NCBI RefSeq assembly: GCF_004345665.1
Contig: NZ_SLWR01000010.1
Coordinates: 215,977-279,976 of the forward strand
DNA: 64,000 bases
DNA from: Kribbella antiqua
GTDB lineage: Bacteria > Actinomycetota > Actinomycetes > Propionibacteriales > Kribbellaceae
Direction: 5' to 3'
Both the position numbers and the translations under genes were made by a program. Below, in pieces: positions 20,528 through 48,321 of this stretch; position 1 is the first letter of the stretch; every line of letters begins with the position of its first letter. The notes beneath the pieces were generated by a model. That model was not told the DNA's origin and did not search any database. It was given only the letters and a program-made list of their open reading frames with translations.

Positions 20528-21976
20528 CTACTTCTCGGTACCCATGCCTCGCTGCTTGTCGCCGCTTCCCGTGGTGGCCGCCTGATCAAGGGCGAACGCT
20601 TTACGTGGGTCTGTCGGGGCCGCCGAACTCACTCCGCCGAAGGCGAGGTACGCCGGATTGGACGGCTGGAGACGCTGGTAGGGTGCCGGCGCCGACTGCG
20701 GGCCGGACCATGCGACGGCGGTCTCCCGCCCGCGCTCGACGCCCAACTGCCGGTAGGGGTGCAGGTTGAACTGGTTCACCAGCCGGCGGCAGACCTCGAG
20801 GCCGCGCACCGAGTTGCCGGCCGGATCCAGCCGTGGCGAGTGGACCGCCATGGCCATCCGCAGCTGGGGGATCACCAGCATGATGTTGCCGGACACACCG
20901 CTCTTGCCCGGCAGCCCGACCTCGATGGCGAACTTGCCCGAACCGTCGTACATCCCGCAGTGCGCCATCAGTGACAGCGCTCGCGCGGTGGCGTCGGCGG
21001 AGAACACCCGCTCCTCCGTGAACGGCGCTACGCCACCGTTCGCCAGCGTGGCGCCCGCAGCCGCCAACCGTTTCGAGTCCAGCTCGAGCGCGCAGACCGT
21101 GGTGTAGAACCTGAGCGCATCCTCGACGGCGACCTCCCCGCTGCCGCCCATCAGCTTGTCCTTGGCGGCGATCCGTCCCGTCAGCTTCCGGTTCCCCTCG
21201 GCGGTTTCCATCTCGGCGAGGAAGGTCTCGAGATCAGACCCGGCCCGCTGCCGCCCCGTCATCGCGTCCCAGATCTCCAGGAGGGCGCGGGCCCGGGCGC
21301 TTTCCCGTTCGCCCGATCTGACCATCGCGAGCGTCCCGATCGCACCGGCGTTGATCATCGGGTTGCGCGGCACGCCGTCCTCGTCCAGGGACAGCACCGG
21401 GTCGTTGAAGGGCCCGCCGCTCTGCTCTGTGCCGACCCGCTTGTGGACCTCCTCAGGTCCCAGCTCGTCGTACGCCATCAAGAGGTTGAAGACTTTCGAC
21501 GTCGACTGGATGCTGAACGGGACGTCGGTGTCGCCGATATTGAAGACCTGGCCGTCCGCCGTGCAGATCGAGATGGCGAACTTGTCCGGGTCCGCACTCG
21601 CAAGGCTCGGAATGTACTGGGCAACCTGGCCGTCGCGGTTGTCCAGCAGATCGTGGTAGATCTCGGTGATGCCTTGGGTGATGTCCGTGAACTGCGAGTG
21701 CGGCATCACCAGCCGGCCTTGCAGCGCCTTCGCGATCACGGGTTCCTGGGCGACCCTCGCGAACTGGTCCCACTCGAGCCACTCGGGTTGTCCTGGCTCG
21801 AAGCCGGGGCGGGTGCCGAGCGCCTCCTCGAGCGCCCGTACGACCCGGGGATCGTCGTTCGCCAGTCCGGATTCCTTCAGCTCCTCGAGCAGCTTCCACT
21901 TCCAGACCACGTTCGTACGGTCGGTGTCGAGCGAGCGGAACACCTCGTCCAGACCGAACATCTCGCCGGCAGCCAT
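20528..21976 (-). CDS. glsA: Glutaminase with EF-hand-like N-terminal domain
   Basis: This is a 482-residue serine-dependent beta-lactamase-fold glutaminase that hydrolyses glutamine to glutamate and ammonia. The catalytic SxxK is in SIQSTSKVFNL. NPMINAGAIG, the ELDSKRLAAAGATLANGG region and GLPGKSGVSGN are diagnostic. Unlike the usual bacterial enzymes of about 310 residues, it carries about 90 extra N-terminal residues (LDEVFRSLDTDRTNVVWKWKLLEELKESGL) that resemble the helical EF-hand-like domain of animal glutaminases. The C-terminus also has about 75 low-complexity residues. The ATG at 21976 is used. It may be cytosolic and regulated by oligomerisation; that is inference. Confidence 0.93.
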   Translation of the reverse strand: MAAGEMFGLDEVFRSLDTDRTNVVWKWKLLEELKESGLANDDPRVVRALEEALGTRPGFEPGQPEWLEWDQFARVAQEPVIAKALQGRLVMPHSQFTDITQGITEIYHDLLDNRDGQVAQYIPSLASADPDKFAISICTADGQVFNIGDTDVPFSIQSTSKVFNLLMAYDELGPEEVHKRVGTEQSGGPFNDPVLSLDEDGVPRNPMINAGAIGTLAMVRSGERESARARALLEIWDAMTGRQRAGSDLETFLAEMETAEGNRKLTGRIAAKDKLMGGSGEVAVEDALRFYTTVCALELDSKRLAAAGATLANGGVAPFTEERVFSADATARALSLMAHCGMYDGSGKFAIEVGLPGKSGVSGNIMLVIPQLRMAMAVHSPRLDPAGNSVRGLEVCRRLVNQFNLHPYRQLGVERGRETAVAWSGPQSAPAPYQRLQPSNPAYLAFGGVSSAAPTDPRKAFALDQAATTGSGDKQRGMGTEK

Positions 21977-22075
21977 GGCTACCCCTTTCCCCAGGTGACG
22001 AACGTGAATTGCAGGTTCTCCGGAGTGTGTTTCGGCGACGGATCCGCGGTGTTAACGCGGTGTCAAACGCGCGTT

Positions 22076-22151
22076 GGCCAGTACTGGAAACTGTCCACTT
22101 CTGACCTGTCCGGGCGAGGCCGCGGCATTCCACGCTGGAGCGGACCGCCCC
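22076..22151 (+). promoter_or_regulatory. Conserved upstream element of RHS gene
   Basis: This block upstream of the RHS start aligns base by base with the DNA upstream of the DNRLRE paralogue at 46320-48140. Shared segments are GGCCA, TGTCCACTT, CCTGT, CACGCTGG and CCGCCCC, with almost the same spacing. It probably contains the promoter and an operator common to the two genes. It ends about 20 bases before the RHS ATG. The regulator is unknown. Confidence 0.6.
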
Positions 22152-22170
22152 GCCCCAGAGAGGTCAGCTC

Positions 22171-25100
22171 ATGCCGTTTCCCCGGACCTGTTTCTCGCGG
22201 CCTTATCCGACCCGACGATCGGCGCGCTGGATCGGCGTCCTCGCCGGTCTTGCCCTGACCGCAACCGTCCTCGAGACGCTGCCGGCGGCCGCAGTACCGC
22301 CGCCGCGGGCCGAGGCCGCAGTCCCGGCCGCAACCGTCACCACGCAGACGATCGGCGCCAACTTCGACGCCTTCGTGCAGAACACCTACACCACCGACCA
22401 GTCGACGACGACCGAGCTGAAGGTCGGCACGTACGACGGCGGCACCAACAAGGCCCGCTCGTACCTCCGGTTCGACAACCAGGAATGGCTGTGGGACAAG
22501 CAGATCCAGTCCGCGACGCTGAACCTGTGGGAACACCATTCCTTCTCCTGTACGGCGAAGGAATGGCAGGCCTGGCGGACGCCGGACGTCACCAACGCGG
22601 TCCGCTGGTCGAACCAGCCGGCCTGGATCGAGAAGGTCGGTACGTCGACGCAGACCAAGGGCTTCTCCAGTTCGTGTGGGGACGGCTGGGTGACGATCCC
22701 CGTGACGGCCGCCTTCCAGCACACGGCGGCGAACCGGCTGTCCAAGACGACGATCGGCGTACAGGCCGCGAGCGAGACCGACAACTACGGCTGGAAGCGG
22801 TTCAACTCCCGCGAGGCGGCGTCCAATCCGCCGTCGGTCACGATCGTCTACCAGACCAAGACGGCCGTGAACGCGCAGGCGACCGCGCCCGAAACCGTGT
22901 GTGCGACCGGCACCGACCGCCCGTACATCCGCAGCCTGAATCCGCAGCTGCGCGCACAGATCAGTGACGGCGTCGGAGCTCAAGTGTCCGCGACGTTCGA
23001 GTGGAAGCCGGTCGGCGGTACGGCGGCCACCGCGACCGCTGGTCCAGGTGCGTCCGGATCGTGGCTGGCGGCAACGGTCGGCCCGTTGACCGAAGGCGGC
23101 AGCTACGCCTGGCGAGTGCAGGGATCAGACGGTACGACGGCCGGCGACTGGTCACCGTGGTGCGAGTTCACCGTCGACACGATCGCGCCGGGATCGGCTC
23201 CCACGGTGTCTTCGACGACGTATCCGGCCGGGCTTTGGTCGGGTGGAGCGGGGGTCGCCGGCACGTTCAGCTTCGGCGCATCGGGCGTGCCGGACGTCGT
23301 CGCCTACGAGTACGGCGTGGACAGCAATCCACCTGATCAGGTCGTCAACGGTGGCGCGACCGCCTCGGTGTCGATCACTCCCACCGCGGATGGGCCGCAC
23401 ACGTTGTGGGTGCGGACGCGTGACCGTGCGGGCAATCGGTCGCCGCTGACGTCGTACACCTTCTCCGTCGGGGGTGGCGCCGTGACCTCGCCGAAGAACG
23501 GTGATGTGAGTGCGGCGAAGACCTCGATCATCGGCGTCGGCCGGTCGACCGCGACCGGTGTGACCTACCAGTGGCGCCGCGGCGACACCGACGCGTGGAC
23601 GACCGTCCCCGCGGCTCACGTGACGGTCGCCGCCGGCGGTGGCGCTGTCACCTGGCCGCTGCCGACATCTGGCAATGGCGAGTTCCCGAAGCTCAACTGG
23701 AACCTCGAGGCGACCTTGGCGGCCGCTGACGCACAGTCGATCCCACGGGATGGTCCGGTGCAGATTCGCGGCACGTTCACCGGCGGTACGGCGGCCTCCT
23801 CGGGCGCGGTGAAGCTGACCTTCGACCGCAATCTGGCGAGTGCGGCCACCAGTCTGGTCGGGCCTGGTGAGGTCAACCTGCTGACCGGCAACTTCACCCT
23901 GTCGGATGCGGATGTGTCGGTAGACGCCTATGGCAGCGACCTGACGGTCAGCCGGACGTACAACACTCGCCGGGCCGGGCAGAGCGACCAGTCCGGCATG
24001 TTCGGACCGGGCTGGATCTCTGGAGCGCTGGTTGACGAGGCGGAAACGCCGTACACCTCGCTGGGAGTGTTCGGGTCGCTCGTGCAGGTGGGGCTGCCGG
24101 ACGGGGACACCGTGGGCTTCACTGCGCGCAACGGGACGGACTTCGATCCGGAGGTGGGGCAGGAGTTCCTCCGCCTGACCTACATGAGCGCGACCGACTC
24201 CTACAAGCTGTCCGATCAGGACGGTACGTCGGTGACGTTCACTCGGGTGGCTGGTTCCGCGGCCGGGACCTATTACCCGACAGCGACCACACAGCCAGGT
24301 AGCAATCAAACGACTACCTATGTTTGGGAGAAGGTCGTTGTCGCCGGTGATGAGGTGGTCCGGCCGACGCGGATGCTCGCGCCGGTGCCGGATGGCGTCA
24401 ACTGCACCACGCTGAGCCGCGGGTGCCGGGCGTTGGGCTTCACCTACGCCACGACGACCACTGCGACGGGCTCCACGCTCGGTGACTACGCCGGGCGGGT
24501 CAAGCAGATCTCCTTTACTGCTTGGGATCCTGACCAGGCTGCGATGCGCACGGTGCCGATGGCGGCGTACGAGTACGACGGCACCGGACGACTGCGCGGC
24601 ACGTGGGATCCGCGACTGGGTACTGCGGCCAAGGAGACATACACCTACCAGGCCGACGGCGTGCTGTCCGCGGTGATGCCGGCCGGCCGGGAGCCGTGGC
24701 AGCTCAGCTACACGACAGTCGGCGGTGATGTGGCTGCCGGACGACTGCACAAGGTCACTCGCTCGACTGCTACGACGACAGTCGCCTACAAGGTGGCACT
24801 GTCCGGCTCTGGTGCGCCCAACGACCTGTCACCCGAGCAGACCAAGCGCTGGGGACAGCTCGAAGCGCCCACGGACGCTACCGCGATCTCTCCGGCCGAC
24901 GAGACTTCTGGCAGCTGGGGCCGGTCCACCGTGAGCTATCTGGACGCCAACGGCCGACTGGTCAACGAGGCGAAGCCCGGCGGCCACATCAGCACCAATT
25001 GGTACGACGGGTTCGGCAACGTGATCCGCTCACTGACAGCGGAGAACAGGGCGCGTGCGCTGAACGACAGTGACGGTTCGCCGGCGCTCTCGACGCTGAA

Positions 25101-27333
25101 CACCTACTCGCTCGACGGGTTGCGCCTCGAGACCACAGCGGAGCCAGAGACCGACGTACAACTGGCCGATGGGACTCTGACGCGTGGACGGCAGGTCGTG
25201 CGCAACACCTACGACCAGGGTGCTCCGGCCGGTGGGCCGTACAACCTCATCACCACCGAAGAGACCCTGGTCCGGCACTGGGGCACGAACGGGACCGCGC
25301 TCGAAGCGGACCGGCGCGTCACCACCACCGGCTACAACTGGTCGCTCCGTCAGCCGACGGTGACGACCACAGACCCCGGCGGACTCGCCCAGACAGTCCG
25401 GAACACGCTGGACCCGGTCACCGGACTGGTGACGTCCACAACCCAGGCGGCGGGCGGTACGACGACCACCACGCCTGCCACCCGCAAGACGATCTACTAC
25501 CGCGCCACGAGCGGCTCTGGCTATGCAGAGTGCGACCTGCGACCGGAGTGGGCGAATCTGCCCTGCCGACAGCAGCCGGGCGGTCAACCGGCCAGTGGTC
25601 CCGAGTTGCCGGCGACGGTGACGACGTACGACATCTATCACCAGCCGCGGGTGAAGACCGAGAAGACCAGTGCGGGCACGCTGCGGACGACGACCACGTC
25701 GTACGACGCAGCCGGGCGAGTCCTGGAGACGCAGGTGTCGGCGACCACCGGCACCGCCGTACCGATCCAGCGCAACGTGTACGACGCAGTGACGGGCGAT
25801 CTGCTGCGCAGCCAGTCGATCGTGGGCGGCTCGGTCACGGCGGAGGTCGTCCGCGGCTATGACACGCTCGGACAGCTCACGTCGTACCAGGATGCCGACG
25901 GCAACGTATCGAGCACGACGTATGACCTGCTCGGCCGGATGGCGACCAGCTTTGACGGCAAGACCACTCGCACCTACTCGTACGACGCACGTGGGCTGCT
26001 CACCGGGGTCAACGACGGCAACGCGGGCTCGTACTCGGGTAGCTACGACGCGGACGGGCGGCTGACGAGTGAGACGTGGCCGAACGGCGTGAAGGTCGAC
26101 ACGACGTACGACGAGAGTGGGAACGAGGCCGGACTCACCTACAGCAAGCCGGGGTGCGCCGCAGCGGACTGTGTGCTGTTCCGGGAGTCGATCACGCGCA
26201 CACCGCATGGTCAGACGGCCAAGCGCGTCTCGTCACTGTCCAGCCAGAGCTACACGCACGACCAAGCGGGTCGGATCACCGCAGTGGCAGACACTGTTGG
26301 GCAGCAATGCACCACTCGCACCTACAGCTTCAACGTCGCCGCCGACCGTCTTGCGAATGCTGAATACGCGCCGGCGGCAGATGGCTCGTGTCAGTCGGTC
26401 ACTGCCGCGTCTACTCGTAACTGGACGTACGACACCGCTGACCGCGTCACTTCGGCCGGCTACGCCTACGACGCGCTTGGGCGGACGACAACCGTTCCTG
26501 CCGTCGACACCGGCGTACCTGCTGCTGGCGCCGCGACGATCGGGTACCACGCGAACGACCTCGTCGACACGATCACGCAGGGCGGACGGACCACCGACTA
26601 CACCATCGACGTCACCGGTGAGCGGATCCGGTCGTGGACCGACAACGCGACCGGTGTGGTCGAGCAGAAGACCCAGCACTACGACAGTGACGAGGACAAG
26701 CCGGTCTGGACCCAGGAGGGCCCGGAGCGGTTCACACGGTACGTCGCTGGGCTCGCTGGGCTGACCGCGGTCATCGACAGTGACAGCGGCGTACCGGAGT
26801 GGCTGGTCACGGACCTGAGTGGGGACGTTGTCGCCACTATCCATGACGGGGACGACGCACTGTCGACGACGAGCGAGGCCGATGAGTACGGCGTCTCGCG
26901 TGATCCGGAGGCTGTCGGGAAGCAGCGGTACGGGTGGCTCGGTGGCGAGCAGCGGGCTGCTGACAGTCCTGGTGGCCTGGTGCTGATGGGTGTGCGGCTG
27001 TACAGCCCGGTCACCGGCCGATTCCTGCAGACCGATCCGGTGTACGGCGGGAGCTGCAACGCGTACGAGTACACCTGTGCGGACCCGATCGACACGTTCG
27101 ACCTCGATGGCAAGAAGGCCAAGAAAAAGAAGAAGTGGAAGTCGGACCTGCTGTTCTGGGCCGGGCCGCTCAAGCGTTTCGGCGGCTGGCTCGGGAAGAA
27201 GGGGAAGTGGCTGTGGAAGGGGTACACGCGGGCGTACGTCGGGTTCCACAAGTGGTTCTACAAGCAGCACCGGAACGTGGCCCGGTGGTCCTGGAAGTGG
27301 ACCAAGCGGGGGTGGCGGAAGCTGTTCGGCTGA
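22171..27333 (+). CDS. Secreted wall-associated RHS-repeat protein with cationic Trp-rich tail
   Basis: This is a 1720-residue protein. A signal region (1-50, RRSARWIGVLAGLALTATVL) leads directly into a DNRLRE domain (about 62-230), a fibronectin-like domain (about 245-340) and another Ig-like domain. A linker with GEVNLLTGNFTLSDADV (about 560-585) precedes the Tyr-Asp RHS repeats (about 650-1590, many YDxxGR units). The RHS core closes with GVRLYSPVTGRFLQTDP and FDLDGK, at which Rhs proteins normally release a variable toxin tip. Here the tip is residues 1648-1720, with 24 Lys/Arg, one Asp and ten Trp. The propeptide-like region found in the paralogue is absent. GAGAGGT precedes the ATG. No immunity gene follows. 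It is probably an extracellular polymorphic-toxin-like protein. Confidence 0.92.
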   Translation: MPFPRTCFSRPYPTRRSARWIGVLAGLALTATVLETLPAAAVPPPRAEAAVPAATVTTQTIGANFDAFVQNTYTTDQSTTTELKVGTYDGGTNKARSYLRFDNQEWLWDKQIQSATLNLWEHHSFSCTAKEWQAWRTPDVTNAVRWSNQPAWIEKVGTSTQTKGFSSSCGDGWVTIPVTAAFQHTAANRLSKTTIGVQAASETDNYGWKRFNSREAASNPPSVTIVYQTKTAVNAQATAPETVCATGTDRPYIRSLNPQLRAQISDGVGAQVSATFEWKPVGGTAATATAGPGASGSWLAATVGPLTEGGSYAWRVQGSDGTTAGDWSPWCEFTVDTIAPGSAPTVSSTTYPAGLWSGGAGVAGTFSFGASGVPDVVAYEYGVDSNPPDQVVNGGATASVSITPTADGPHTLWVRTRDRAGNRSPLTSYTFSVGGGAVTSPKNGDVSAAKTSIIGVGRSTATGVTYQWRRGDTDAWTTVPAAHVTVAAGGGAVTWPLPTSGNGEFPKLNWNLEATLAAADAQSIPRDGPVQIRGTFTGGTAASSGAVKLTFDRNLASAATSLVGPGEVNLLTGNFTLSDADVSVDAYGSDLTVSRTYNTRRAGQSDQSGMFGPGWISGALVDEAETPYTSLGVFGSLVQVGLPDGDTVGFTARNGTDFDPEVGQEFLRLTYMSATDSYKLSDQDGTSVTFTRVAGSAAGTYYPTATTQPGSNQTTTYVWEKVVVAGDEVVRPTRMLAPVPDGVNCTTLSRGCRALGFTYATTTTATGSTLGDYAGRVKQISFTAWDPDQAAMRTVPMAAYEYDGTGRLRGTWDPRLGTAAKETYTYQADGVLSAVMPAGREPWQLSYTTVGGDVAAGRLHKVTRSTATTTVAYKVALSGSGAPNDLSPEQTKRWGQLEAPTDATAISPADETSGSWGRSTVSYLDANGRLVNEAKPGGHISTNWYDGFGNVIRSLTAENRARALNDSDGSPALSTLNTYSLDGLRLETTAEPETDVQLADGTLTRGRQVVRNTYDQGAPAGGPYNLITTEETLVRHWGTNGTALEADRRVTTTGYNWSLRQPTVTTTDPGGLAQTVRNTLDPVTGLVTSTTQAAGGTTTTTPATRKTIYYRATSGSGYAECDLRPEWANLPCRQQPGGQPASGPELPATVTTYDIYHQPRVKTEKTSAGTLRTTTTSYDAAGRVLETQVSATTGTAVPIQRNVYDAVTGDLLRSQSIVGGSVTAEVVRGYDTLGQLTSYQDADGNVSSTTYDLLGRMATSFDGKTTRTYSYDARGLLTGVNDGNAGSYSGSYDADGRLTSETWPNGVKVDTTYDESGNEAGLTYSKPGCAAADCVLFRESITRTPHGQTAKRVSSLSSQSYTHDQAGRITAVADTVGQQCTTRTYSFNVAADRLANAEYAPAADGSCQSVTAASTRNWTYDTADRVTSAGYAYDALGRTTTVPAVDTGVPAAGAATIGYHANDLVDTITQGGRTTDYTIDVTGERIRSWTDNATGVVEQKTQHYDSDEDKPVWTQEGPERFTRYVAGLAGLTAVIDSDSGVPEWLVTDLSGDVVATIHDGDDALSTTSEADEYGVSRDPEAVGKQRYGWLGGEQRAADSPGGLVLMGVRLYSPVTGRFLQTDPVYGGSCNAYEYTCADPIDTFDLDGKKAKKKKKWKSDLLFWAGPLKRFGGWLGKKGKWLWKGYTRAYVGFHKWFYKQHRNVARWSWKWTKRGWRKLFG

Positions 27334-27353
27334 GTCGTCAGACAGGTTGATCA

Positions 27354-27370
27354 CTTGTATGATGACTGGA
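27354..27370 (+). promoter_or_regulatory. Candidate -10 box and GntR site with leaderless start
   Basis: TATGAT at 27358-27363 lies 7 bases before the A of the ATG at 27370, and no Shine-Dalgarno sequence is present. This fits a leaderless transcript. The surrounding TTGTATGATGAC resembles operators of FadR-type GntR regulators, one of which is encoded by the next gene. The -35 region is not recognisable. Confidence 0.4.
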
Positions 27371-28497
27371 TGCCGAGTGATCAGATCCGCCACATCCGTC
27401 TCTCGTCCGTCGTCCTCCCGCTCGAGCGGCCGGTCAGCGATGCCAAGGTGCTGACCGGCCGGCAAAAGCCGATGACCGAGATCGTGTTCCTGTTCGCGGA
27501 GATCGCGACCGCCGGCGATCAGCACGGGATCGGGTTCAGCTACTCGAAGCGGGCCGGTGGGCCGGCGCAGTACGCGCATGCCAAGGAGGTGGCGGCTGGG
27601 TTGATCGGCGAGGATCCGTCGGATATCGGGAAGGTGTACGACAAGCTGCTCTGGGCCGGGGCGTCGGTCGGCCGGTCCGGAGTGGCGACGCAGGCGATCG
27701 CGGCGATCGACATCGCGTTGTGGGACCTGAAGGCGAAGCGGGCCGGGCTGCCGCTGGCGAAGCTCCTTGGTGCGCATCGGGACTCCGTGCGCGCGTACAA
27801 CACCTCGGGCGGTTTCCTGCACGCGCCGATCGAGGAGGTCAAGGAGCGGGCCTCGAAGTCGCTGGCCGACGGGATCGGCGGGATCAAGATCAAGGTCGGG
27901 CAGCCCGACACCCGGATCGACCTGGAACGGGTCCGCGCCGTCCGCGAGCACCTGGGCGACGACGTACCGCTGATGGTCGACGCGAACCAGCAGTGGGATC
28001 GGCCGACGGCGCTGCGCTTCGGGCGGGTGCTCGAGCAGTTCGACCTGGTCTGGATCGAGGAACCTCTGGACGCGTACGACGCCGAGGGTCACGCGCAACT
28101 GGCAGCGGCGCTGGACACCCCGATCGCCACCGGCGAGATGCTGTCGAGCGTCACCGAGCACGTCCGGCTGATCGACGCTCGCGCCGCCGACATCATCCAG
28201 CCGGATGCGCCGCGGATCGGCGGCATCACCCCGTTCCTGCGGCTGGCCGTGCTGGCCGACCACAACGGACTCCAGCTCGCTCCGCACTTCGCGATGGAGA
28301 TCCACCTGCACCTCGCGGCAGCGTATCCGCGCGAGCCGTGGGTCGAGCACTTCGAATGGCTGAACCCCTTGTTCAACGAGCGTTTGGAGACCCTGGACGG
28401 CCGCATGCTCGTGCCTGACCGGCCCGGTTTGGGCTTCACCACCTCCGAGCAGTGCGCCGCGTGGACGGTCGACAGCTGCGAGTTCGGCACTCGATGA
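27370..28497 (+). CDS. Enolase-superfamily acid-sugar dehydratase (galactarate/talarate type)
   Basis: This 375-residue enzyme belongs to the mandelate racemase branch of the enolase superfamily. The catalytic Lys pair is KIK (Lys173 and Lys175). Metal ligands are in VDANQQW, WIEEPLD and ATGEML, and the general base His is in LAPHFAMEIHLHLAAAYP. The PHFAMEIH form resembles L-talarate/galactarate dehydratases, which remove water from hexarates. The ATG at 27370 is used; a TTG 5 codons upstream gives an unlikely extension. It is coupled by ATGA overlap to a GntR regulator and lies next to a glucarate pathway. The exact substrate is inferred, not proven. Confidence 0.87.
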   Translation: MPSDQIRHIRLSSVVLPLERPVSDAKVLTGRQKPMTEIVFLFAEIATAGDQHGIGFSYSKRAGGPAQYAHAKEVAAGLIGEDPSDIGKVYDKLLWAGASVGRSGVATQAIAAIDIALWDLKAKRAGLPLAKLLGAHRDSVRAYNTSGGFLHAPIEEVKERASKSLADGIGGIKIKVGQPDTRIDLERVRAVREHLGDDVPLMVDANQQWDRPTALRFGRVLEQFDLVWIEEPLDAYDAEGHAQLAAALDTPIATGEMLSSVTEHVRLIDARAADIIQPDAPRIGGITPFLRLAVLADHNGLQLAPHFAMEIHLHLAAAYPREPWVEHFEWLNPLFNERLETLDGRMLVPDRPGLGFTTSEQCAAWTVDSCEFGTR

Positions 28498-46319: not shown

Positions 46320-48140
46320 TCATCGCGACGCCATAGTCGGCGCTACTGCCAAGGACATGGTGTTCACGGTGAACTCACACCAGTCGGACCACGCGCCGGC
46401 CGTCGTACCGTCGGAGCCCTGGACGCGCCAGGCATAGCTGCTGCCCTCGGTGAACGCACCGTCGGGGATGGTCGAGCCCAGCCACGAGCCGGAGGCACCA
46501 GGACCCTCAGTCGTCGTGGTGCTGGTGGACGCGCCGACCACCTTCCACTCGAAGGTCGCGTAGACCGATGAGGCCAGGCTGTCACTGATCTGCGCCCGCA
46601 ACTGCGGCGTCAGGCTGGAGATGTACGGCCGGGTCGCGCCCGTCGCGCAGGTGGTGTCGGGCGCAGTCGCCACGGCGTCGACCGTCGTCTTGGTCTGGTA
46701 GACCACAGTCACCGACGGCAGGTTCGCAGCCGCGTCACGGGAGGCGAATCGCTTCCAGCCGTAGCTGTCCGTCTCACTGGCGGCCTTGATGCCGATGCTG
46801 GTCTTGGTCAGCTTGTTGGTGGCCGTGTACTGGAAGGCGGCCGTCACGGGGATCGTCACCCAGCCGTCGCCACAGGCGCTCGAGAAACCCTTTGTCTGCG
46901 TCGATGTGCCGACTCGCTCGATCCACGCCGGCTGGTTCGACCAGCGGATCGTGCTCGACTCTTCCGGCGTACGCCAGGCTTCCCAGCCCTTCGCCGTACA
47001 CGAGTAGGAGTGGTGCTCCCACAGGCTCAGCGTCGCGCCCTGGATCTGCTTGTCCCACAGCCATTCCTGGCCGTCGAACCGCAGGTACGACCTCGCCTTG
47101 GTGGACCCGCCGTCGTGCGTGCCGAGCTTGAGCTCGGTCGCGCCGGACTGGTCGCTGGTGTAGGTGTTCTCGACGAACGCATCGAAGCTCGAGCCGGTGC
47201 TCTGCGACGGGTCGATAGTCACCGGGTACACAGTGTTCGGATCGTTGAGGAACGCCGCGTCCGGGGTCAGCAGCAGCGCGTCCTTGGCGAACCCGAGCCC
47301 GACTGGCGCGCGACGGGTGTGCTCACCCGAAGCCGAGTCGACGGTCGCGTCCCACATCATCGGCGCCGGTACGTCGTACTGCTCGGCGCCGGCGCGGACG
47401 GCGAGACCGCCTTTGCCGTCCGGCTTCGCGGTCAGGCCGGCCATCTTGAACGGCATCCGGATCTGCTTCAGCTGCGTGGCCGCGGCACGGTTCTTGACCA
47501 GCAGGTGCTGCTGGTAGCCGGTCCGAGTGGCCTCGACGACCAGGTCGACGCCGGGCTTGACGTCCCGATAGGTGGCGATGGTGCCGGCCAGCTCAGGGGC
47601 GGGGAGCGGGCCGGACCAGCCGAGCGCGGAACGCTTGCCCTCGGCACCTATCGACACGAGTTCATGGTCACCATTGCCTGCTGGGCCGGACAACTTCAGG
47701 CCGTAGGGATGCGCGATCGACGCCACTGTGCCGTCCGGACGGCGGACGAGCGAGACGTCGACATCGGTCCAGCGGCCGGCCGCGTCGCTCATCCGGACCG
47801 GGCCGGCCGCCATCGTCGCTTCGATGGTTCCGTTGGGCATCGCCCGGTACTCGGTCGTCTCGGTAGTGCGGCTGGTGATCAGCACTGGTTTGCCGGTGAC
47901 CCGGGCGGCGATCGCCGCGGACGCCTCGTCGGGTCGCTCGAGCGGCAGGTCGGCGGTGGTGTCGGCCTGATCCGTCGTACCGGCCTGTTCCGTCGTACCG
48001 GCCCGTTCCGTCGTACCGGCTTGGGCGGGCGGCGCCAGCAGCGTCGCGACCAGCGCCAACCCTGCGCTGACGGCTATCCAGCGCGCCGAGCGGCGCCCCG
48101 GAAAGACGCGCAGCGGGCGCGACCTCGGGAATGCGGACAT
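46320..48140 (-). CDS. Secreted DNRLRE protein, RHS-less paralogue of the RHS protein
   Basis: This is a 606-residue protein. A signal region (RRSARWIAVSAGLALVATLL) is followed by a short AGTTE repeat, a propeptide-like region (about 65-310, TDVDVSLVRRPDG, ATYRDVKPGVDLVVEA), a DNRLRE domain (about 317-485) and a fibronectin-like domain (about 490-600). DNRLRE and fibronectin-like parts align closely with residues 62-340 of the RHS protein at 22171 (KARSYLRFD-QEWLWDKQIQ, SNQPAWIE-VGTSTQTKGFSS). It stops where that protein enters its second Ig-like domain, at APTMASR. The ATG at 48140 follows GAGAGG. It may be a surface binding module or a shortened RHS gene kept in use. Confidence 0.9.
   Translation of the reverse strand: MSAFPRSRPLRVFPGRRSARWIAVSAGLALVATLLAPPAQAGTTERAGTTEQAGTTDQADTTADLPLERPDEASAAIAARVTGKPVLITSRTTETTEYRAMPNGTIEATMAAGPVRMSDAAGRWTDVDVSLVRRPDGTVASIAHPYGLKLSGPAGNGDHELVSIGAEGKRSALGWSGPLPAPELAGTIATYRDVKPGVDLVVEATRTGYQQHLLVKNRAAATQLKQIRMPFKMAGLTAKPDGKGGLAVRAGAEQYDVPAPMMWDATVDSASGEHTRRAPVGLGFAKDALLLTPDAAFLNDPNTVYPVTIDPSQSTGSSFDAFVENTYTSDQSGATELKLGTHDGGSTKARSYLRFDGQEWLWDKQIQGATLSLWEHHSYSCTAKGWEAWRTPEESSTIRWSNQPAWIERVGTSTQTKGFSSACGDGWVTIPVTAAFQYTATNKLTKTSIGIKAASETDSYGWKRFASRDAAANLPSVTVVYQTKTTVDAVATAPDTTCATGATRPYISSLTPQLRAQISDSLASSVYATFEWKVVGASTSTTTTEGPGASGSWLGSTIPDGAFTEGSSYAWRVQGSDGTTAGAWSDWCEFTVNTMSLAVAPTMASR
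47971..48024 (-). repeat. Three tandem 18-bp repeats inside the DNRLRE gene
   Basis: TCCGTCGTACCGGCC plus three variable bases is repeated at 47971-47988, 47989-48006 and 48007-48024. On the coding strand it encodes repeats of Ala-Gly-Thr-Thr-(Glu/Asp)-(Arg/Gln) right after the signal peptide. Copy number is likely variable. Confidence 0.85.
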
Positions 48141-48246
48141 GATCAACCTCTCAGGGGTTGCCGTTCCCGGGCACGCCGGATCAGCCGGAAACGCCTGCGT
48201 CGAAAGGCGAATCGGCTGCTGGGGACGACGTACGGGCGGGAACGTC

Positions 48247-48321
48247 GGGGCGGACCCCACCAGCGTGGGCCGCAGCACGCTCCACCAACAGGGAAAAAGT
48301 GGACAACTTCCCTAATTGGCC
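48247..48321 (-). promoter_or_regulatory. Conserved upstream element of DNRLRE paralogue
   Basis: Reading on the minus strand, this block matches 22076-22151 upstream of the RHS gene (GGCCA, TGTCCACTT, CCTGT, CACGCTGG, CCGCCCC in order with similar spacing). An inverted repeat AGGGAA-12-TTCCCT (48290-48313) lies at its core. Here about 105 bases separate the block from the ATG, against about 20 at the RHS gene, so extra leader DNA is present. Confidence 0.6.

Follow-up and report, generated by a model that had tools for sequence, protein, structure and literature searches.

What does an RHS protein carry at its tip when neither an enzyme nor an immunity gene is evident? Most of the RHS tips known so far are enzymes accompanied by immunity genes. 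The question is raised by a gene on the plus strand (22171–27333) of the window, by which we mean the whole stretch of 64,000 nucleotides that was analysed, from the 8.1 Mb genome of Kribbella antiqua. Its product – a probably secreted YD/RHS-repeat protein of 1720 residues, recognised from its open reading frame, domain matches and homologues – ends in a cationic, Trp-rich tail that an earlier note on this DNA likened to a membrane-active antimicrobial peptide mounted on an RHS core.

The protein begins with a putative signal peptide, RRSARWIGVLAGLALTATVLETLPAAA, read from the sequence (22171–22320), followed by a DNRLRE domain (22366–22845; NF033679, residues 66–225, E 3.6e-19), by a DUF6531 domain that marks the start of the RHS region (23872–24021; PF20148, residues 568–617) and by the end of the RHS core (Rhs_assc_core, 26887–27114; TIGR03696, residues 1573–1647). 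RHS/YD repeats and the RHS-associated core are matched by PF05593, PF20148, TIGR03696 and TIGR01643. Given the signal sequence, the 1720-residue protein is presumably exported by a route of Sec or Tat type. To the left, and divergent from the RHS gene, lies a glutaminase gene (20528–21976, minus strand; TIGR03814); to the right an MR/MLE-type dehydratase gene (27355–28497, plus strand; PF13378, PF02746), which starts at ATG 27371 or at TTG 27355 and is itself followed by a GntR/FCD gene.

In-frame translation of 27112–27333 yields KKAKKKKKWKSDLLFWAGPLKRFGGWLGKKGKWLWKGYTRAYVGFHKWFYKQHRNVARWSWKWTKRGWRKLFG and a stop codon: 73 residues including 24 Lys or Arg, one Asp, no Glu and ten Trp, the composition originally described. 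The first Lys, K1648, is still part of the core motif DLDGK, one residue beyond the point at which the TIGR03696 model stops, leaving a tip proper of 72 residues (27115–27330, or 27115–27333 with the stop codon). That this is genuine coding sequence follows from its GC content by codon position (0.43/0.47/0.96). The tip accounts for some 9 kDa of a protein of about 180 kDa and bears a net charge of +22 over its 72 residues, or +23. Compared with 125 tips borne by cores of the same type (see below) it ranks first for Trp content, second for net charge per residue and sixth from the shortest, ranks that argue against chance as the source of its composition; in hydrophobicity it is fifth lowest of 121 such tips.

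Composition is matched by periodicity. Of 1000 shuffles, 1 surpasses the mean helical hydrophobic moment of the tip at a window of 18 residues and 11 do so at a window of 11, whereas its beta-strand moment is ordinary by the same comparison; the best 18-mer is RNVARWSWKWTKRGWRKL, and the moment stays high to the final residues. AlphaFold2 models residues 4–72 as a single helix, at low confidence (pLDDT 64; 55 for an orthologue tip, values too low to support a fold search). The examination of amphipathicity and structure proposed in the earlier note is compatible with a helix, weakly so as regards the structure model, and the tip has the positive amphipathic character of cationic antimicrobial peptides. 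The likeness to a membrane-active peptide holds in these respects, with added weight from the membrane-protein neighbours of related tips; it fails in that the tip has no hydrophobic segment (best 19-mer, Kyte–Doolittle mean 0.05), and membrane-spanning helices of the kind known from Tse5 and Tox-WTIP were sought in it and not found. The suggestion that the tip forms pores is therefore doubtful. An enzymatic tip can be rejected: neither the window tip nor those of its orthologues matched any Pfam family, and the window tip found no relative among solved chains (best E 0.87).

A further issue is how such a tip would be set free. The RHS autoprotease motif that precedes the tip reads DPXGX18DPXG (PMC10684867). 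The putative autoprotease aspartates of the window protein, D1622 and D1644, stand 22 residues apart, which is the canonical spacing, and both are invariant in 26 DLDG-type cores of the class; the second motif of the window core reads DLDG and not DPXG, and the Leu of the cleavage site is replaced by Lys. Conservation of both aspartates at this spacing makes release of the tip plausible, and by comparison with other RHS proteins we infer that the core forms a cocoon and cleaves itself after DLDGK, at K1648. The cocoon suggests another account of the charge, namely that it serves only the packing of the tip into, or its export from, an acidic shell. Cargo translocated by Tc-type cocoons needs a pI of about 8 or more (PMC6868009), and the window protein stripped of signal region and tip has a net charge of -46. 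Yet within the genus the RHS tips of DPxG type lack a cationic character, so that charge is not needed in general, and the Tc study itself counsels avoiding amphipathic helices in cargo of this sort (PMC6868009); we regard this account as very improbable.

Evidence that the tip is an exchangeable module comes from eight orthologues – from seven further genomes within the genus and from a second contig of the window's own genome (G000:C2) – that are 74–76% identical over the N-terminal 500 residues. Their tips, of 91–110 residues, are 20–38 residues longer than the window tip, nearly devoid of acidic residues, and end in Gly/Cys segments. They comprise type A, KGAGLSMLRKSFWAK...GAQGCAFGVV, and type B, GGALGVLTVDTIKNGW...GCAGGVIMYH, which are homologous to one another, with a score never reached by shuffles. 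Homology of the window tip to either type is undetectable (42–99.6% of shuffles score equally), and the idea that it is a diverged version of them was rejected on this ground. A wider comparison with related RHS tips, as the earlier note had advised, brought to light a class of short acid-poor tips and no homologue of the exact tail; selection on the window tip is consequently not measurable. Judged from the sequences, close relatives with N-terminal parts so similar and tips that are not homologous have swapped tips, and this is the exchange that defines polymorphic toxins. All orthologues also possess some 300 propeptide-like residues after the signal sequence that are absent from the window protein.

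The other hallmark of polymorphic toxins, an adjacent small immunity-like gene, is missing from the window gene and from each of the eight orthologues. The original observation that no immunity gene follows is borne out, the dehydratase gene being next. Type A tips have dN/dS values mostly of 0.2–0.5, against 0.13–0.3 for the core; this purifying selection indicates that acid-poor tips lacking adjacent immunity are retained for some function. A non-toxic role is one alternative: a cationic, aromatic tail could bind anionic polymers of the wall, such as teichoic acids, and hold the YD protein on the surface of its producer, and a protein of this kind would require no immunity. The strong positive charge and the lack of an immunity gene in all nine family members agree with an anchor, and wall-binding parts are frequent in Gram-positive RHS relatives (PMC13018210), though not at the tip there. 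A structural anchor would not, however, be expected to be non-homologous between close paralogues, nor to sit behind an RHS core and conserved autoprotease aspartates, the place of released cargo; moreover, the tail is not shared by every RHS protein in the genome. An anchoring role is in our view quite improbable.

The history of the locus bears on a more serious alternative. In 12 relatives the glutaminase gene adjoins the dehydratase gene and the RHS gene is absent, in three further relatives no RHS gene precedes the dehydratase, and the dehydratase is conserved in 27 of 38 genomes of the genus. Homology to the empty site breaks off near 22077 and begins again near 27333 (27333–27341 in most relatives). 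Upstream of the gene, 126 of 177 aligned bases are identical to the paralogue at G000:C2, a similarity that begins abruptly at 22075; the promoter region so defined (22075–22170, plus strand) is missing from the empty site of the relatives and was carried with the gene. Since the left boundary of the homology matches the start of the promoter and the right one the end of the gene, the insertion consists of promoter and gene only. Its right junction falls at the RHS stop codon, a position that would, as far as the alignment goes, suit either a precise end or a tip shortened during the insertion, and truncation must therefore be taken seriously.

By this alternative the tail is only a basic, amphipathic linker or entry segment, the actual payload – a Gly-rich hairpin or an enzyme – and its immunity gene having been lost on relocation. 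The junction at the stop codon of an inserted promoter and gene is what such a loss would leave. The longer orthologue tips with their terminal Gly/Cys segments point the same way, as does the similar Trp/Lys-rich stretch in tips L006 and L040 of the class, which continues into a further C-terminal part; so, too, does the lack of some 300 residues near the N-terminus. Against these points, the tail is not homologous to the N-terminal part of the orthologue tips, frame and GC3 are intact up to the stop, the moment is high to the last residues, and some class tips are just as short (47–93 residues). We consider loss of a payload, the strongest of the alternatives, unlikely, while giving it substantial weight. 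A frameshift, which the earlier note had named together with a longer enzymatic tip in relatives as grounds for abandoning its reading, can be rejected: frame and GC3 are unbroken, there is no room for extra coding sequence before the dehydratase gene, and the longer tips are unrelated to the window tail, so that the tail did not arise simply by a frameshift that shortened one of them. What stands is that the relatives' tips are longer and that the junction lies at the stop codon; the longer tips match no enzyme.

Some 19 kb away, at 45–49 kb, lies what is likely, from its gene content, to be the ancestral RHS site. Only an N-terminal homologue of 652 residues remains there (46320–48278, minus strand; 70% identity to residues 30–349), close to LuxR-like, CMD and PEP-mutase-like genes. 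This homologue need not be a remnant and may be a regular companion, as the same type of gene occurs directly 3′ of the full RHS gene in four other species (L118, L120, L122 and L123). LuxR-like genes whose products end in FVDAPTRFAAGAAAQRLGLLG, possibly regulators, adjoin most of the RHS orthologues (L118, L120, L122, L123, L117), and one of the same type persists at 48.3–49.4 kb of the window.

Comparison with other actinobacterial RHS proteins shows that a tip of this kind is not unique to the window protein. With a profile of the core end we collected distinct tips from the genus, class and phylum and divided them by core ending into D[L/I/T]xG (125 distinct proteins) and DPxG (91). Tips of the first type have a median length of 134 residues with 3.0% Asp/Glu, 16% Lys/Arg and 3.7% Trp, against 275 residues with 10%, 11% and 1.7%, a balanced charge, in the second. 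Mann–Whitney p values for the contrast range from 5e-11 to 7e-29 (length 7e-29, acid content 2e-21); they overstate the evidence because the sequences are related by descent, though the separation is plain in the lists of tips. A tree likewise separates the two core types, the best split misplacing 11 of 213 sequences with support of 0.88, and of 296 genomes sampled across the bacterial class, 65 contain a match to the D[L/I/T]xG type. The window core conforms to the pattern YGWLG..QRA...LMGVRLY..DP..GG..Y.Y..DP...DLDGK, and its tip is short and acid-poor like the others. In actinobacteria, cores of this type as a rule carry short, acid-poor, cationic tips, and the window tip is by its sequence an extreme, possibly truncated, example of a widespread kind.

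Further tips in the class likewise begin with amphipathic stretches of Trp and Lys. Tip L006, from the same genome, consists of five KRFGKWAWKHT-like amphipathic 11-mers followed by a Gly-rich hairpin, and tip L040, from Virgisporangium, of KWGGKHAWRGIKWGG repeats followed by a further block. The coding region of L006 and L055 (G000:C10, about 210650–211080, minus strand) belongs to a YD protein 5 kb to the left of the window; its tip, with about five tandem KRFGKWAWKHT units before a Gly-rich, Cys-containing segment, resembles an amphipathic helix built from repeats.

Clues to what the class does come from small genes next to the RHS genes. As neighbours we accepted closed open reading frames on the same strand, 50–260 residues long, starting -35 to +100 from the stop and passing a filter on codon-position GC, a rule by which some of the soluble neighbours counted may be spurious. 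Neighbours were found for 50 DLDG-type and 36 DPxG tips; those with at least two hydrophobic segments, and hence membrane spans, number 25 of 50 in the former and 2 of 36 in the latter (Fisher p 6e-6; 3e-5 under a stricter filter), the neighbours of DPxG tips being mostly soluble and acidic. Examples are the small membrane proteins beside L016 (96 residues), L020 (88), L024 (82), L030 (76) and L041 (68), and in the same genome that beside L053 (93). This contrast suggests that the DLDG-type tips act at membranes: small membrane-protein neighbours are to be expected if many of them do, as with CDI ionophore toxins and their two-helix immunities (PMC11630599). From the gene contexts it is probable that many, though not all, DLDG-type tips act on bacterial membranes, half of the small neighbours (for example those of L038 and L040) being soluble. 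Among newly fetched class members, no significant contrast in membrane neighbours emerged between acid-poor and balanced tips (p 0.17), so that the membrane claim rests on core type; nor was tip hydrophobicity significantly linked to a membrane or soluble neighbour (p 0.12). The window tip has no membrane-protein neighbour.

The tips L038 (6001–6426, Micromonospora) and L040 (6001–6498, Virgisporangium) share a C-terminal block, FGR..GR.GI.NR..VR.G..WN.K.QRN.F..H.G....NW..R..PR.HWD.F, that matches no Pfam family, and have soluble acidic neighbours; on this pattern they probably represent an enzymatic tip of a new type. Nucleases are common among RHS tips, and these two relatives, together with the high positive charge, invite the thought that the window tip is a basic RNase or a DNA- or RNA-binding toxin. 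With 72 residues, no family match, hardly any residues of catalytic type (one Asp, no Glu, two His) and no soluble acidic immunity protein encoded alongside, it is a poor candidate, and we judge such a role highly unlikely.

The best explanation that we can offer starts from what is observed – the gene and its core, the composition and amphipathic periodicity of the tip, its membership of the class, the exchange of tips, the insertion of a single gene and the absence of adjacent immunity – and extends it by a membrane action that we infer. The exported protein would be of polymorphic-toxin type, from an actinobacterial lineage of YD/RHS proteins with a 'DLDG' core. By analogy, the core would enclose the tip in a cocoon and cut itself after DLDGK (1648), freeing 72 residues of net charge +22; the amphipathic helix of Lys/Arg and Trp would bind anionic bacterial membranes and disturb them, or else supply the contact through which tips of this sort gain entry to membranes. 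This tip would have replaced the longer, unrelated, acid-poor tips of the orthologues by the exchange typical of polymorphic toxins. That a released cationic, amphipathic tip helix acts at anionic membranes we put forward tentatively, at slightly short of an even chance. In its favour we count the ranks in Trp and charge, the helical moment and helix model, the traits and membrane neighbours of the class tips, the repeats of L006, the conserved aspartates and purifying selection on type A tips; against it, the lack of a hydrophobic segment and of a membrane neighbour, the two non-significant comparisons given above and the soluble half of the class neighbours. In a bolder version, an RHS protein can be armed with a warhead resembling an antimicrobial peptide, namely a bare amphipathic helix of Trp and Lys, about 70 residues long, whose killing depends on charge and membrane affinity and therefore requires no cognate immunity; such a tip would be the minimal form within a large class of actinobacterial tips that lack acidic residues and act on membranes. 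We think this improbable.

The literature yielded nothing specific on actinobacterial RHS tips of this kind or on RHS proteins of Kribbella, our reading of it being confined to open-access papers and so weak evidence of absence. Membrane-acting RHS tips as such are known already (Tse5; Tox-WTIP), whereas we found no description of a secreted actinobacterial RHS core lineage with almost only short, acid-poor, cationic tips. Our data indicate one such lineage, its tips rich in Trp and uncovered by Pfam models. If these tips are membrane-active, they amount to a large and as yet unassayed reservoir of delivered membrane toxins, and orphans like the window tip would show whether a delivered tip can dispense with specific immunity.

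Among the closest known systems is Tse5, a pore-forming RHS effector of the Pseudomonas aeruginosa type VI secretion system (PMC9637101, PMC10684867), with which the window protein shares the RHS core, the putative aspartyl autoprotease Asp pair and, as proposed here, a small membrane-acting tip. Tse5 is, however, a T6SS-delivered protein of a Gram-negative, and its C-terminal toxin of about 16 kDa has a cognate immunity protein, Tsi5; the window tip, at about 9 kDa, is strongly basic and has neither a hydrophobic segment nor an immunity gene. Tox-WTIP, likewise a non-enzymatic tip associated with RHS proteins, was given no immunity family in the 2012 survey of polymorphic toxins (PMC3482391); it differs in having two hydrophobic membrane helices of its own with RxxR and WTIP motifs, neither of which occurs in the window tip. 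The CDI ionophore toxins (PMC11630599) pair a membrane-acting tip with a hydrophobic immunity protein of 72–100 residues, as we see for many DLDG-class tips, but they are five-helix bundles of Gram-negative CdiA proteins, and the window gene has no such partner. TelE and EsxX (PMC10434224, PMC12744356) are Gram-positive polymorphic toxins with membrane-depolarising C-termini; these are LXG proteins of the type VII secretion system, whose glycine zippers are found in class relatives and are absent from the window tip. In composition and helical amphipathicity the tip resembles the Trp/Lys-rich cationic antimicrobial peptides; those are free peptides, whereas the sequence described here forms the C-terminus of an RHS protein of 180 kDa.
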